The notes below the pieces were generated by a model, which had not been told where the DNA came from, did not search any database, and saw only the letters and a program-made list of their open reading frames with translations. From assembly GCF_015732185.1 (NCBI RefSeq), contig NZ_WIQM01000016.1, positions 62,001 to 126,000 on the forward strand: a DNA stretch of 64,000 nucleotides. Direction: 5' to 3'. This DNA comes from Pectinatus haikarae. GTDB taxonomy: Bacteria > Bacillota > Negativicutes > Selenomonadales > Selenomonadaceae. Position 1 is the stretch's first letter. Every line of letters starts with the position of its first letter. Below are positions 43,603 to 50,682 of the stretch, one piece after another. The position numbers and the translations under genes were made by a program.

Positions 43603-44973
43603 TCAGAAGAAGAATTCAACGGAGCCATATATTCTGTTGAAATCAGCATCTTGTCCGGAAACATCTTCGCCCAAATTCTTACCTTTGAAATAGCGTAAGG
43701 AAGCTAAGATATTCTGAGCAACGGTCCACTGACCGCCAACTTCCCAGCCTTTATAACCACGCTGTGCAGCATCATAGGTAGGTGCAAAAGTTGCAAATTC
43801 ACCAAGGTAACGATATGCTGTGTAAAGACCCCAGCTGCCTGCTTTAGAAGCATCAGCGCCTTTATAGGATAAGGTTATATCATAAGCTTTATCCTGATCG
43901 TCGCCTTCATAACCGCTGTAAGCATCAAGATTGCTCTTTGCATATACACCATATATATTGAAATCTTTATTAAATTTATAGCCTAAACCAGCTGACCAAA
44001 TATTGGTGTTTTCACCGCTTGCCTTTTGATAATCAGAGAATAATGCTTTTCCACCATCATTATCTCGGTTAATATTTCTCAAAGAATAATAACCTGCTAC
44101 ATATCCAAGACCTCTATCACCTGTTACTGCATGGCCTACTTCAAATGATGCATAATCGCCTGTTCCATCATAAGCAGTTGTTCTGCCAATATTGGCATCG
44201 GAATCAAAATCATAACGTCCGATAACAGCCTTCACATAAGTATCCTTATTTTTGCCAAGCTTCCAATTGAACTGAGCACCGCTGACATTATCATCCATGA
44301 TCATGCCTGATCCAAAAGCATCATCACTGTAGGTGTCAAGCTTACCTAATTTAGTATCAGCACCGAACAAAGGACCTTCTACATAAATACGATCAACTAC
44401 AGTATCGCTTTTATCACTGGTACCATTATTTGTGCTACCGCCGTTATTAGCAGAAGCAGAATTGGAATAGTATCTGATACGTGCATTGGCAGTCCAGCCG
44501 GAATCACCAATGAAAGCTTTTGGTTCAAGACGGAATTCATATTGGCTGTCATTTGTTCTGTCACCGCTCTGAGCTTTATCACCAGCATAATAATACTTTA
44601 ATTCTCCGCCCCATTTAACGTTGTCGGATTTTTTTTCGAGATCGGCAACACGTACACCGAGGTTGTCGAGTTCTTCGGAGAATTCTGCAGCAAGTTTATC
44701 GACAAGAGCTTTATCAGCTTTGTCGATATCGGTCTTGGTCATAGCTTTTGCTATGATCTGAGCCATTTCATAACGGGTCATGGTCTGCTGGCCTTTGTAA
44801 GTGCCGTCTGGGAAGCCGTTAACAACACCGTCAGAAGCAAGTTTTGATACAGCGTCATATGCCCAGCTGTCAGCCGGTACATCACTGAAAGGATTAGCTG
44901 CAGCGAAAGTAGTGCTGGCAGCACCGATTACCAGCGCACCGGTAATCATTGATACGAGAGTTCTTTTTTTCAT
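43603..44973 (-). CDS. SLH-domain outer-membrane porin 1
   Basis: A 456-residue precursor with a signal peptide (cleavage after TTFAAA). One SLH domain (NPFSDVPADSWAYDAVSKL...MTRYEMAQIIAKAM, residues 27-80) would anchor to the peptidoglycan or its modified polymers. A coiled-coil linker (residues 90-120) is followed by a beta-barrel of about 330 residues rich in alternating aromatic strands and ending in Phe (YGSVEFFF), the signal for barrel insertion. This architecture is typical of Negativicutes and tethers the outer membrane to the wall while allowing diffusion. Its first 368 bases are almost identical to those of the divergent gene at 45524. Confidence 0.92.
   Translation of the reverse strand: MKKRTLVSMITGALVIGAASTTFAAANPFSDVPADSWAYDAVSKLASDGVVNGFPDGTYKGQQTMTRYEMAQIIAKAMTKTDIDKADKALVDKLAAEFSEELDNLGVRVADLEKKSDNVKWGGELKYYYAGDKAQSGDRTNDSQYEFRLEPKAFIGDSGWTANARIRYYSNSASANNGGSTNNGTSDKSDTVVDRIYVEGPLFGADTKLGKLDTYSDDAFGSGMIMDDNVSGAQFNWKLGKNKDTYVKAVIGRYDFDSDANIGRTTAYDGTGDYASFEVGHAVTGDRGLGYVAGYYSLRNINRDNDGGKALFSDYQKASGENTNIWSAGLGYKFNKDFNIYGVYAKSNLDAYSGYEGDDQDKAYDITLSYKGADASKAGSWGLYTAYRYLGEFATFAPTYDAAQRGYKGWEVGGQWTVAQNILASLRYFKGKNLGEDVSGQDADFNRIYGSVEFFF
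44606..44973 (-). repeat. Inverted repeat, arm 1 (5' end of porin 1)
   Basis: These 368 bp match 45524-45891 in opposite orientation with only about three silent differences that I could find (for example GATATC versus GATATT). The match begins exactly at the two start codons and ends at KWGG, where the barrels begin to differ. The arms are 550 bp apart. Confidence 0.9.
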
Positions 44974-45079
44974 TAGAAATTCCTCCTAAAATTTTATGGC
45001 CTGAAATTTCAGTAAGGAAAGCCGTATGAGTATCCACGTTTCCTCAACTTTTTCATTACCTTATCTCAAGTCTGTAATC

Positions 45080-45108
45080 ATATTAACATATTGTTAATAT
45101 ATTGGCAA
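45080..45108 (-). promoter_or_regulatory. Porin 1 promoter
   Basis: On the minus strand TTGCCA (45108-45103) and TAATAT (45085-45080) are 17 bp apart. The leader of about 100 nt shares TTGAGGAAAC and a GGAAA/TTTCC hairpin with the porin 2 leader. Confidence 0.65.
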
Positions 45109-45384
45109 GCATTTTTTATAATAACTCGCCTTCCTCAGATGCCCGCAGTTATAGCCTATTTTGCGTATAGCTATTAGTTATAGTCAATATTTATTTACTT
45201 TAAAAAGGATCTATATTTTTTGAAAATGTACAATAGAAGGCTGTTCTTTTTACGTCAATTGCATTTTTCTTATTTTTTTATTCATATTTGATTTTCAGCT
45301 GACCAAAATTATGTATTACAGAAATATGCCAATTATTTTTATGTAAAAAATATATTAATTATGTATTATTTTTTATAAACAAAG

Positions 45385-45413
45385 TTGCGTATGTCAATAA
45401 ATAATGATAATAT
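45385..45413 (+). promoter_or_regulatory. Porin 2 promoter
   Basis: TTGCGT (45385-45390) and TAATAT (45408-45413) are 17 bp apart. The -10 box is identical to that of porin 1. The leader contains TTGAGGAAAC at 45446-45455 and a GGAAA/TTTCC stem, as in porin 1. The middle of the 550-bp region (45115-45380) is AT-rich with no gene. Confidence 0.65.
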
Positions 45414-45523
45414 GAAAAAGTATTTGAAATGACAGGTGTGAATTCTTGAGGAAACAAGGCTGCTCACTAATTTCCCTTTCATTTTAAGTACAAGAAATAT
45501 TAAAGATTTCAGGGGGAAATCCA

Positions 45524-45891
45524 ATGAAAAAAAGAACTCTCGTATCAATGATTACCGGTGCGCTGGTAATCGGTGCTGCCAGCACTACTTTCGCTGCAGC
45601 TAATCCTTTCAGTGATGTACCGGCTGACAGCTGGGCATATGACGCTGTATCAAAGCTTGCTTCTGACGGTGTTGTAAACGGCTTCCCAGACGGCACTTAC
45701 AAAGGCCAGCAGACCATGACCCGTTATGAAATGGCTCAGATCATAGCAAAAGCTATGACCAAGACCGATATTGACAAAGCTGATAAAGCTCTTGTCGATA
45801 AACTTGCTGCAGAATTCTCCGAAGAACTCGACAACCTCGGTGTACGTGTTGCCGATCTCGAAAAAAAATCCGACAACGTTAAATGGGGCGG
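45524..45891 (+). repeat. Inverted repeat, arm 2 (5' end of porin 2)
   Basis: The second arm of the 368-bp near-identical inverted repeat described at 44606-44973. The sharp end of identity at the barrel boundary suggests gene conversion or selection on the anchor domain. Confidence 0.9.
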
Positions 45892-46882
45892 CAGACTCAG
45901 ATATTACTACCGCGGTGTAAAAGATGATTCTGCTGCTAATAAAGACAGAACAAACGACACCCAGTATGAACTGCGCCTTGAACCAAAAGCCTTTATCGGT
46001 GATTCTGGCTGGACTGCCAATGCACGTATCAGATATTATTCCAATGCAGCCTCTGCTAATAATGGCGGCAGCACAAATAATGGTACCAGTGACAAGAGTG
46101 ATACAAAGATAGACCGCATCTTTGTCGAAGGACCTTTGTTTGGTTCGGATGCAAAACTTGGTAAAGTCGGCACTTACAGTGATAATGTATTCAATACCGG
46201 TATGATTATTGATGACAGCATCAGCGGTGCTGAATTCAATTGGACGTTCGGCAAAGATAAATCCAATTACGCAAAAGCTACCATAGGCCGCTATGATTAT
46301 AATTCCGGTGCTAATGTGGGCGTTTCCAACTATGCTTATGACGGCACAGGTGATTATACATCTTTTGAATTTGGACATAAAGCTAAAGACAAAGGTATCA
46401 GTGCTCTTGCCGGATATTATTCTTTAAGAAACATGGATTCCACTTTCTCCAAGTATGCTAAAGCAGATTCTGATAAAACCAATTTCTGGGTTGGCGGCTT
46501 AGGTTATAAATTTGACAAAAATATTCAGTTATTTGGACTTTACGCCAAGAGTGATATGGATGAAGCTTCTAATTATTTAGGAGACGATCAAAGCAAAGCT
46601 TATGATATTACTTTGAAATACAAAAACGCCGATATCGCTAAAGCAGGTTCATGGGATATCTATGCTGCATACCGTTATCTCGGTCAGTTTGCAACTATTG
46701 CTCCTACCTACGATATCAGTGCCCGTGATACTAAAGGCTGGCAGATAGGTACAGATTTTGTATTATCTAAAAATATACTTGCTATGGTTGAATATTACAA
46801 GGGCAAGAGATTATCTGCTGACTACAGCGGCAATGATGCTGATTATAATGCTATCTATGGCCGTGTTGACTTCTTCTTCTGA
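45524..46882 (+). CDS. SLH-domain outer-membrane porin 2
   Basis: A 452-residue paralogue of porin 1 with the same signal peptide, SLH domain and coiled coil, and a diverged barrel that also ends in Phe (YGRVDFFF). A second shared block lies in the barrel (GDSGWTANARIRYYSN and the ASANNGGSTNNGTSDKSDT loop), while surface-loop regions differ. Having two divergent porins with different loops may change permeability or phage and antibody recognition. GGGGG precedes the ATG. Confidence 0.92.
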   Translation: MKKRTLVSMITGALVIGAASTTFAAANPFSDVPADSWAYDAVSKLASDGVVNGFPDGTYKGQQTMTRYEMAQIIAKAMTKTDIDKADKALVDKLAAEFSEELDNLGVRVADLEKKSDNVKWGGRLRYYYRGVKDDSAANKDRTNDTQYELRLEPKAFIGDSGWTANARIRYYSNAASANNGGSTNNGTSDKSDTKIDRIFVEGPLFGSDAKLGKVGTYSDNVFNTGMIIDDSISGAEFNWTFGKDKSNYAKATIGRYDYNSGANVGVSNYAYDGTGDYTSFEFGHKAKDKGISALAGYYSLRNMDSTFSKYAKADSDKTNFWVGGLGYKFDKNIQLFGLYAKSDMDEASNYLGDDQSKAYDITLKYKNADIAKAGSWDIYAAYRYLGQFATIAPTYDISARDTKGWQIGTDFVLSKNILAMVEYYKGKRLSADYSGNDADYNAIYGRVDFFF

Positions 46883-49732: not shown

Positions 49733-49790
49733 CACCCATGATATGAAGGAAATTATGCTAAAGTACTTTCATATCATGGGTATTTTTTTT
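49733..49790. terminator. Bidirectional terminator between the ABC operon and glnL
   Basis: The stem ACCCATGATATGAA/TTCATATCATGGGT has an A-run on the left and a T-run on the right. The spacer 49539-49732 shows no gene. Confidence 0.85.
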
Positions 49791-50682
49791 ATTTGCTGCA
49801 TTCAATATACAATGTGCGTAAAAATTTTTTACTATTTACATGTGTCTGTACTATCTGGGGTTTTTCTTCATTTTCCATCTTGCGCATAAGTGTATATATT
49901 TCAGCCATTTCAAAGTAGCGCGATGCATAATCATCAAACTTAGGATTTGTACAATCGACAATTCCCAATGAGGCAATATTGACCATTGCCTGAAAAACAG
50001 TACGTCGCATTCTCTGCTCGGCAGCCTTTATTTCTTTTTGCGCATCTTTACCATTTTTTTCTTTTACCAATAGAGCAAATATACTTTTCAGAGACGGAAA
50101 AGCTTTAGCAGTATCAACCATTTTCTCTTGCAGACACTGAAGCAGCAACAATATTTCATGGCTGCCACTCCCGCTGTCGATCCCAAGATCCTTCATCACC
50201 GCACTGCCATGTTCAATTACGGAAAAAGATTTATCCTTCAGCTTCTTGCTTTCATCAGTATCCGGATCATAAACAGTATGAAGACTTGTCCTTATATTAT
50301 CAACAAAACTTTTCAGGCAGGCATGTTCACTGACAGCGCGTATCACACCGATGATCTCGTTGCGATTTATGGGCTTTGTTATATAGTAATCCACACCAAA
50401 TGCGTAGGCATCACCCACCATCTCCTTGTTTTCTACCTGAGAAAGCATGATTATTTTCCCATCGAAACCATCTTTTATGTCCTTTACGGTTTGTATACCA
50501 TCCCGCACCGGCATCAGCATATCTATTATTAATATATCTATTTTTTTCATTTGCAGAAAGTTATTGTCCAGTGCCACGGCAGTATCTGCTATTTCTTCTA
50601 CTTCTCCCAGCTTATAATCCTCTATAATATCCTGCAACATGGTACAAACTGCCATATCATCATCTATTATCATGAATCTCAT
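49789..50682 (-). CDS. GlnL/YcbB-type response regulator
   Basis: A 297-residue response regulator. The N-terminal receiver has acidic residues in IIDDDM, the phospho-Asp in IIDMLMPVRDG and Lys in ITKPIN. The C-terminal half is not a standard output domain; its pattern (VMKDLGIDSGSGSHEILLLLQCL...AEQRMRRTVFQAMVNIASLG) matches the YcbB domain of Bacillus GlnL, which binds DNA. It follows the kinase gene by 10 bp. The stop codon touches the shared terminator. Bacillus GlnL responds to glutamine; here the neighbours suggest a dicarboxylate or aspartate signal, which is inference. Confidence 0.8.
   Translation of the reverse strand: MRFMIIDDDMAVCTMLQDIIEDYKLGEVEEIADTAVALDNNFLQMKKIDILIIDMLMPVRDGIQTVKDIKDGFDGKIIMLSQVENKEMVGDAYAFGVDYYITKPINRNEIIGVIRAVSEHACLKSFVDNIRTSLHTVYDPDTDESKKLKDKSFSVIEHGSAVMKDLGIDSGSGSHEILLLLQCLQEKMVDTAKAFPSLKSIFALLVKEKNGKDAQKEIKAAEQRMRRTVFQAMVNIASLGIVDCTNPKFDDYASRYFEMAEIYTLMRKMENEEKPQIVQTHVNSKKFLRTLYIECSK

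Follow-up and report, generated by a model that had tools for sequence, protein, structure and literature searches.

The locus holds two divergent OmpM-type porin genes

A 64,000-nucleotide stretch of DNA from Pectinatus haikarae (assembly GCF_015732185.1, contig NZ_WIQM01000016.1, positions 62,001 to 126,000 of the forward strand; this whole stretch is called the window, and coordinates are those of the window) contains two porin genes that point away from each other. Here we analyse the near-identical 5′ coding ends of these two genes and the leaders that precede them. The first gene, ompM-A (43603-44973, minus strand), is an open reading frame (ORF) of 456 amino acids that adjoins rpsB and matches the Pfam SLH domain (9.4e-13). 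Its divergent partner, ompM-B (45524-46882, plus strand), is an ORF of 452 amino acids that matches both SLH (1.3e-12) and Porin_5 (1.6e-5), the latter barely over the Pfam cut-off. In both proteins the SLH domain lies at residues 28-71, above the Pfam cut-off, and is preceded by a signal peptide, as judged by eye. No Pfam barrel match was obtained for ompM-A, which still aligns with ompM-B through the C-terminal FFF. In the PDB, the chains most similar in sequence are 8bys, 8bym and 8byt, all from SLH-domain proteins, which we take to be Veillonella parvula OmpM; ompM-B matches 8bys_A with an E value of 1.6e-45 across residues 3-439 (phmmer). The pair has the features of OmpM-type proteins, an SLH domain after the signal peptide and a C-terminal outer-membrane barrel, and from their sequence we identify the two divergent genes as coding for outer-membrane tether porins of the OmpM type. 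As described in PMC10628300, V. parvula OmpM is a trimer that tethers the outer membrane to polyaminated peptidoglycan, with a triple coiled coil as its stalk and SLH domains that come from separate chains.

The 5′ ends of the two genes, which encode the signal peptide, the SLH domain and the coiled coil (hereafter the anchor), form an inverted repeat. Arm A (44606-44973, minus strand) and arm B (45524-45891, plus strand) are identical at 365/368 positions, and the three mismatches, at coding positions 132, 153 and 249, are all synonymous. An earlier note on this DNA had described coding ends nearly identical even at synonymous positions and 368-bp arms that point apart across 550 bp, and we confirm both the identity and the coordinates. 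The ungapped identity runs from the ATG to the first strand of the barrel (WGG); in a repeat search the arm pair extends ungapped to 423 nt at 94%. There is no third copy of the arm in the window genome by DNA search, and a protein search gives the same two genes. The 550-bp spacer between the arms contains a second, short inverted repeat (45027-45047 and 45446-45466, 81% complementary), which is the pair of leader hairpins considered below.

Both genes have relatives in other Pectinatus species, for each of which one genome was compared. The ompM-A orthologue adjoins rpsB in the window genome and in four other Pectinatus genomes. In P. cerevisiiphilus, ompM-B occupies the same divergent position, beside amino-acid ATP-binding cassette (ABC) genes. 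In P. frisingensis, ompM-B was found, and contig ends fall inside the intergenic region, so that the adjacency of A and B is hidden; substrate-binding protein and ABC genes were not found by tblastn on its B-side stretch. In the stretches compared, the two remaining genomes have A alone at the locus. Barrel identity is 78% between window A and P. cerevisiiphilus A and 85% between window B and its B, compared to 68-69% between A and B; by sequence, the barrels are orthologous by type across Pectinatus species. In the P. frisingensis gene (ompB, L021:7833) the anchor contains an N and its reading frame is broken there, and the contigs end in the intergenic region. An assembly break at the anchor is expected if near-identical anchors confuse short-read assembly.

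The anchors are homogenised by gene conversion

The two window genes differ at 1/62 fourfold sites in the anchor (1.6%) and at 35/83 in the barrel. If codon choice or overlapping RNA signals were selected strongly enough to freeze the synonymous sites of the anchor, no conversion would be needed to explain this difference. However, either window gene differs from the genes of other species at 14-21 of 52-59 fourfold anchor sites (about 25-36%), a level of divergence that speaks against such freezing. We conclude from these comparisons of sequence that the near-identity of the window anchors results from recent gene conversion, and that the leaders and barrels stayed distinct.

Homogenisation of the anchor extends beyond the window. 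We compiled a family set of 83 ompM genes from 27 genomes, which are those that passed an ORF and SLH pattern filter among the compared stretches; some partial or divergent copies (e.g. G059:776968-778206) and the broken P. frisingensis B gene were dropped. Within genomes of this set, fourfold divergence is 0.338 for anchors and 0.474 for barrels, and the anchor is the less diverged part in 101/131 same-genome pairs. Between genomes, the medians are alike (0.611 for anchors and 0.604 for barrels in 3257 pairs), which again argues against selection on codons or RNA signals. The effect is seen in 18/22 genomes (Wilcoxon P 1.8e-4). Similarly, in trees of 78 genes from 22 genomes, the anchors require 23 changes of genome label, close to the minimum of 21, while the barrels require 39. 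Anchors group by genome even when third codon positions are used alone (25 versus 37 label changes), a result not expected from constrained synonymous sites. Based on the same-genome divergence, the label changes and the 18 of 22 genomes, homogenisation of the anchor is a habit of the family. The suggestion in the earlier note of gene conversion that holds the wall anchor constant as the barrel changes is therefore borne out family-wide, by fourfold sites and by trees.

Three observations weigh against a uniform role for conversion. First, the A and B anchors of P. cerevisiiphilus differ at 13/60 fourfold sites, only slightly under the cross-species values, and thus homogenisation there is older or weaker. 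Second, the excess is nil or negative in 4/22 genomes. Third, fourfold sites of Pectinatus anchors change more slowly than those of barrels between species, as selection on codons or RNA signals would have it: window A and P. cerevisiiphilus A differ at 18/59 sites in the anchor and 52/111 in the barrel, and part of the anchor similarity is therefore due to slow synonymous change. As a replacement for conversion, we consider such selection extremely unlikely.

Like anchors and unlike barrels would also result if the whole gene had recently been duplicated and one barrel then replaced or rapidly changed, a scenario that may apply to some of the other genomes compared. In Pectinatus, however, each barrel has an orthologue in P. 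cerevisiiphilus and P. frisingensis and the A-type upstream regions are conserved; thus, the pair predates these species, the identity of the anchors is younger, and recent duplication is a most improbable origin for it.

The boundary of the identity is informative about how the exchange occurred. The first 15 nt of window A are the same in 3/3 B genes and in 0/4 other A genes; that is, window A has a B-type start beneath an A-type leader. This fits non-crossover conversion better than inversion, which would move the leader too, and a conversion tract ending near the ATG would account for it. The direction of transfer from all informative sites is ambiguous (8 A-type and 5 B-type of 13 sites in window A; 7 and 6 in window B), and only the first 15 nt point to B as the donor and A as the recipient.

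Because the OmpM trimer takes its SLH domains and coiled coil from three chains, compatibility offers a plausible reason for a common anchor: sharing it would keep wall binding and trimer assembly compatible while the pores diversify. With this architecture, mixed OmpM trimers may form. Conversion in multigene families is a known process; a search of open-access papers aimed at it gave no report for OmpM anchors.

Each gene keeps its own upstream region

A promoter-like site with a TGn element precedes each gene: TTGCCA-17-TAATAT for ompM-A (45080-45108, minus strand) and TTGCGT-17-TAATAT for ompM-B (45385-45413, plus strand). The first was found by a consensus scan, and similar sites are seen by eye upstream of other A genes; the second was identified by eye and missed by the scan. 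Since the scan reported 7 sites compared to 3.4 (sd 2.2) in shuffled sequences, which is no clear excess, the promoter calls rest on position and on the similar sites in relatives. The proposal that the spacer holds one promoter for each gene thus stands as far as the promoter-like sites go, and draws nothing from the scan.

Two such units between near-identical inverted arms had raised the possibility of an expression switch, in which recombination between the arms inverts 44974-45523 and exchanges promoters between the porins. Any cell with functional RecA could recombine long, near-identical arms separated by about 550 bp, and the arrangement resembles the sap system of Campylobacter fetus, in which divergent surface-protein genes have identical anchor-encoding 5′ ends and one promoter is moved among genes. 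The window pair is like sap in its divergent genes with shared anchor-coding 5′ ends and in its recombinable inverted repeats. It differs in that a separate promoter-like site and a separate leader precede each gene, rather than a single shared promoter, and in that one orientation, not both, was found in the genomes compared. Similarly, in the Lactobacillus slpA/slpB inversion a silent surface-protein gene is exchanged with the expressed one; the window genes likewise encode surface proteins and share ends that are inverted relative to each other, but both appear from their sequence to be equipped for expression.

If the spacer flipped, upstream regions should be found with either barrel. Instead, the 250 nt upstream of window A align with those of A genes in the four other Pectinatus genomes (z 54.5, 30.3, 8.5 and 11.2), but much less with those of B genes (z 2.8-3.4, local alignment). 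The upstream region of window B aligns with that of P. cerevisiiphilus B (z 8.9), so B-type DNA is also kept with B in these two species; against P. frisingensis B the z of 1.3 reflects sequences too diverged to judge. The A-type upstream region is paired with an A barrel in 5/5 Pectinatus genomes, including the three that have both genes; the shared orientation of those three is weak evidence against frequent flipping, with a chance of 1 in 4. No recombinase was found among seven neighbouring proteins in a Pfam scan, and exchange of two equivalent promoter-leader units would change little. The comparison of orientation among relatives that the earlier note had called for therefore finds the A side constant in all five genomes, and it leaves the expression switch unsupported. 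We reject promoter inversion as the principal explanation and regard it as very unlikely; rare RecA-dependent inversion may occur in part of a population. The inverted repeat is, instead, probably a by-product of the divergent orientation of two genes that share an anchor.

A conserved hairpin lies in the leader of each gene

The hairpin of leader A (45027-45046, minus strand) has the stem UGAG/CUCA and a 12-nt loop, and that of leader B lies at 45447-45466 (plus strand). Comparison of leaders gives the consensus UGAGGAAACAUGGAYACUCA, with a 4-bp stem and a 12-nt loop. The exact pattern occurs 8 times in five Pectinatus genomes, once or twice in each and never in reverse reading, and all eight places coincide with ompM leaders. 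A looser regular expression, in which the loop and the inner pairs alone are fixed, has a match upstream of 65/83 ompM genes. From 65 leaders of the class (Negativicutes) we built a covariance model, R1, whose matches in the contributing genomes arise by construction while those in other classes do not. In the window genome exactly two R1 matches pass (45019-45053, E 4.0e-7, and 45440-45474, E 1.06e-3); both are the ompM leaders, and the next match has an E of 0.35.

The stem shows covariation. In the 65 leaders, 93.8% of stem cells are paired compared to 83.2% in shuffled alignments (0/500), and the two outer pairs contain 25 doubly changed cells compared to 7.1 (0/500). Among 59 additional distinct sequences recovered by the model, 97.9% of cells are paired and 17 are doubly changed (3.4 in shuffles); sequence set A3 was recovered with R1 and so is biased toward the R1 stem. 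Among 30 motifs of other classes, the first three pairs of the stem form in all 30 and the fourth in 27. A five-pair stem was also tried, and gave 88.8% of cells paired, with the fifth pair formed in 31/59 sequences.

Several results weigh against a general, structured hairpin. The regular expression finds no match upstream of 18/83 ompM genes. Two of five covariation measures are no better than shuffles, since the counts of double-change pairs (377/500) and of pair types (61/500) fail to beat them, and the inner two stem pairs are invariant and hence uninformative. Moreover, the leaders alone are not unusually stable (folding z -0.90 and -1.88): leader B folded alone includes the hairpin, but in leader A the most favourable fold has GAGGAAA paired with a downstream CU tract instead.

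The invariant core, GGAAAC..GG, and the inverted-repeat-like ends also resemble a short operator, and the motif might act as DNA, bound by a transcription factor, instead of as RNA. We consider this unlikely, because the motif lies downstream of the promoter-like sites, always faces the same way with respect to the gene in the loci that we read, covaries at the outer stem positions as base pairs do, and is followed by a tract complementary to the Shine-Dalgarno sequence. No Rfam match overlaps the hairpin up to an E of 1 in the window stretch and seven related loci, and TwoAYGGAY and the other Rfam families were rejected as its identity on this basis.

A CU tract after the hairpin is complementary to the Shine-Dalgarno region

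About 7-15 nt downstream of the hairpin, each leader has a CU tract. In leader A this tract (CUUUCCUU, 45014-45021, minus strand) is a putative anti-Shine-Dalgarno sequence, based on tract enrichment and complementarity across leaders, and in leader B the tract (UUUCCCUUU, 45471-45479, plus strand) is complementary to the GGGAAA of the same leader. The corresponding Shine-Dalgarno regions are UAGGAGGAA for ompM-A (44980-44988, minus strand) and CAGGGGGAAA for ompM-B (45510-45519, plus strand), giving the pairings UUCCU/AGGAA in leader A and UUUCCC/GGGAAA in leader B. CUCC is present in 39/65 tracts compared to 7.8 in shuffles, and complementarity to the Shine-Dalgarno region exceeds that of shuffled tracts (mean z 2.60). 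Indeed, tracts fit the Shine-Dalgarno region of their own leader better than those of others: own pairs score 17.19 compared to 14.30 (sd 0.224) when permuted (z 12.9, 0/2000), in 134 of 141 leaders, after the 7 with <50 nt from motif to start were dropped. Against this, the own-pair advantage loses significance (z 0.8) when the 18 leaders of other classes are considered by themselves.

The 5′ strand of the hairpin was rejected as a conserved partner of the CU tract, since its complementarity is weak (mean z 0.90) and non-specific (11.60 versus 11.71 permuted); pairing between the two is nevertheless possible as an alternative fold.

The fit between tract and Shine-Dalgarno region, together with the competing folds, leads us to propose translational control through alternative pairings of the CU tract. 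The hairpin and CU tract would be a cis-acting element in which the tract can cover the ribosome site. The level of porin synthesis would then depend on recognition of the invariant loop by a factor or, alternatively, on GAGGAAA pairing with the tract. We infer both the control step and the loop-reading factor from patterns in the leaders.

CsrA might be such a factor, because the loop AUGGA in a short hairpin resembles the CsrA site consensus and CsrA is present in 84/150 genomes of the class. However, the leader is also present in 15/20 of the CsrA-negative genomes listed (46 more are unlisted), one of them with nine copies, and leader B carries GGC in place of a second GGA. Given those 15 genomes, CsrA is rejected as the general partner, and we give hardly any credence to the hairpin as a CsrA site. 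Taken together, we think it likely that the locus combines conversion of the anchors with a hairpin and CU-tract leader, one for each gene, that acts as a cis translational control element, and that the inverted repeat is no switch.

The leader precedes porin-like genes in outer-membrane-bearing Firmicutes

We read 87 loci with leader matches, of which the 59 from the class and the first 20 from other classes are best-scoring matches and not a random draw. In 86 of them, the leader lies 5′ of genes for SLH porins (58) or for secreted, barrel-like proteins that lack SLH (28), with signal peptides judged by eye. The balance differs between classes: in the class itself, 51 loci are followed by an SLH porin, 7 by an SLH-less secreted protein, and the remaining one runs into a contig end, while the 28 loci of other classes include 7 of the former and 21 of the latter. 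The 7 in the class (L168, L175, L178, L180, L184, L186 and L197) are porin-like proteins behind the same leader. The occurrence of the leader before such SLH-less proteins suggests that it tracks the pore rather than the anchor. When 16 SLH-less proteins were scanned, 2 passed a Pfam porin cut-off (L175, Porin_5; L216, Porin_4), so that the barrel nature of these proteins is partly deduced; 4 others had weak barrel-type matches below cut-off and 10 had none, which counts against the generality of the association with porins.

R1 has a match in 262/300 genomes of the class at an E of 0.01. In a phylum-wide draw of 199 genomes, the leader is present in 39, of which 35 are outside the class, and Omp85, a mark of an outer membrane, is present in 49. 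The leader is found in 38/49 Omp85-positive genomes but in only 1/150 Omp85-negative genomes (Fisher P 1e-29, uncorrected for relatedness); the two scans were separate but on the same stated draw, and match-free genomes are only partly listed. The sole Omp85-negative genome with a leader is G487 (E 8.1e-4). In 11 Omp85-positive genomes no leader match was obtained. Whole-class searches around two new genomes, from two other classes, found the leader in 54/72 and 17/17 genomes, and 24 further leader-positive genomes, G487 included, lie outside these three classes; thus, the leader is present in at least four classes.

Three further observations concern individual loci. In one genome of the family (G013; contigs C3, C5 and C6) the leader is matched nine times, and at least five of these matches fall within ompM clusters on a single contig. 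At three loci of other classes (L207, L214 and L217), the hairpin lies ~260 nt before the chosen start codon, compared to the usual 60-80. In the window, a response regulator with a YcbB domain (49789-50682) is encoded near the amino-acid ABC genes downstream of ompM-B.

Relation to known systems and meaning

The OmpM/SLH porin family is already known. The window proteins are like OmpM/Mep45 of Negativicutes in having a signal peptide, one SLH domain, a coiled coil and a barrel, and several ompM copies per genome are also found in V. parvula, which has three in tandem (PMC5491611). Unlike those described, the genes here are a divergent pair with an anchor that is near-identical in DNA; neither anchor gene conversion nor a leader RNA is discussed in the passages of PMC5491611 consulted.

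RNA control of porins is well known in Proteobacteria. In Prochlorococcus, two porins are named as targets of Yfr1 (PMC6778093), a trans-acting small RNA of cyanobacteria. The proposed role of the leader would likewise be RNA-level control of porins, but its conserved part lies within the mRNA whereas Yfr1 acts in trans. The leader resembles Rfam cis-regulatory leaders in its structured 5′ region and Shine-Dalgarno-complementary tract, and differs from them in having no overlapping Rfam match. Like structured cis-regulatory RNAs, it shows covariation, at the two outer pairs, and a constant position and orientation before one class of genes (86/87 loci). Our searches of the open-access literature, from which subscription journals are mostly missing, gave no description of the leader or of RNA control of porins in two-membrane Firmicutes, and literal spellings of the hairpin motif gave no occurrence.

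We lean somewhat toward the view that the hairpin and CU tract are an undescribed RNA family that controls porin translation across outer-membrane-bearing Firmicutes and was inherited from a common two-membrane ancestor. The presence of the leader in several classes is in line with such descent; alternatively, it may have spread together with porin genes. The leader also bears on the possible ancestral origin of the Firmicutes outer membrane, a question posed in PMC5007114. If this view is correct, the leader would be a shared post-transcriptional switch for the outer membrane and a non-protein marker of its single origin. As an element that accompanies Omp85 in at least four classes, the leader would provide a handle on how these bacteria set their content of tethers and pores. 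The conversion of anchors suggests that the paralogues of OmpM retain the ability to share a single stalk for wall binding and trimer formation.

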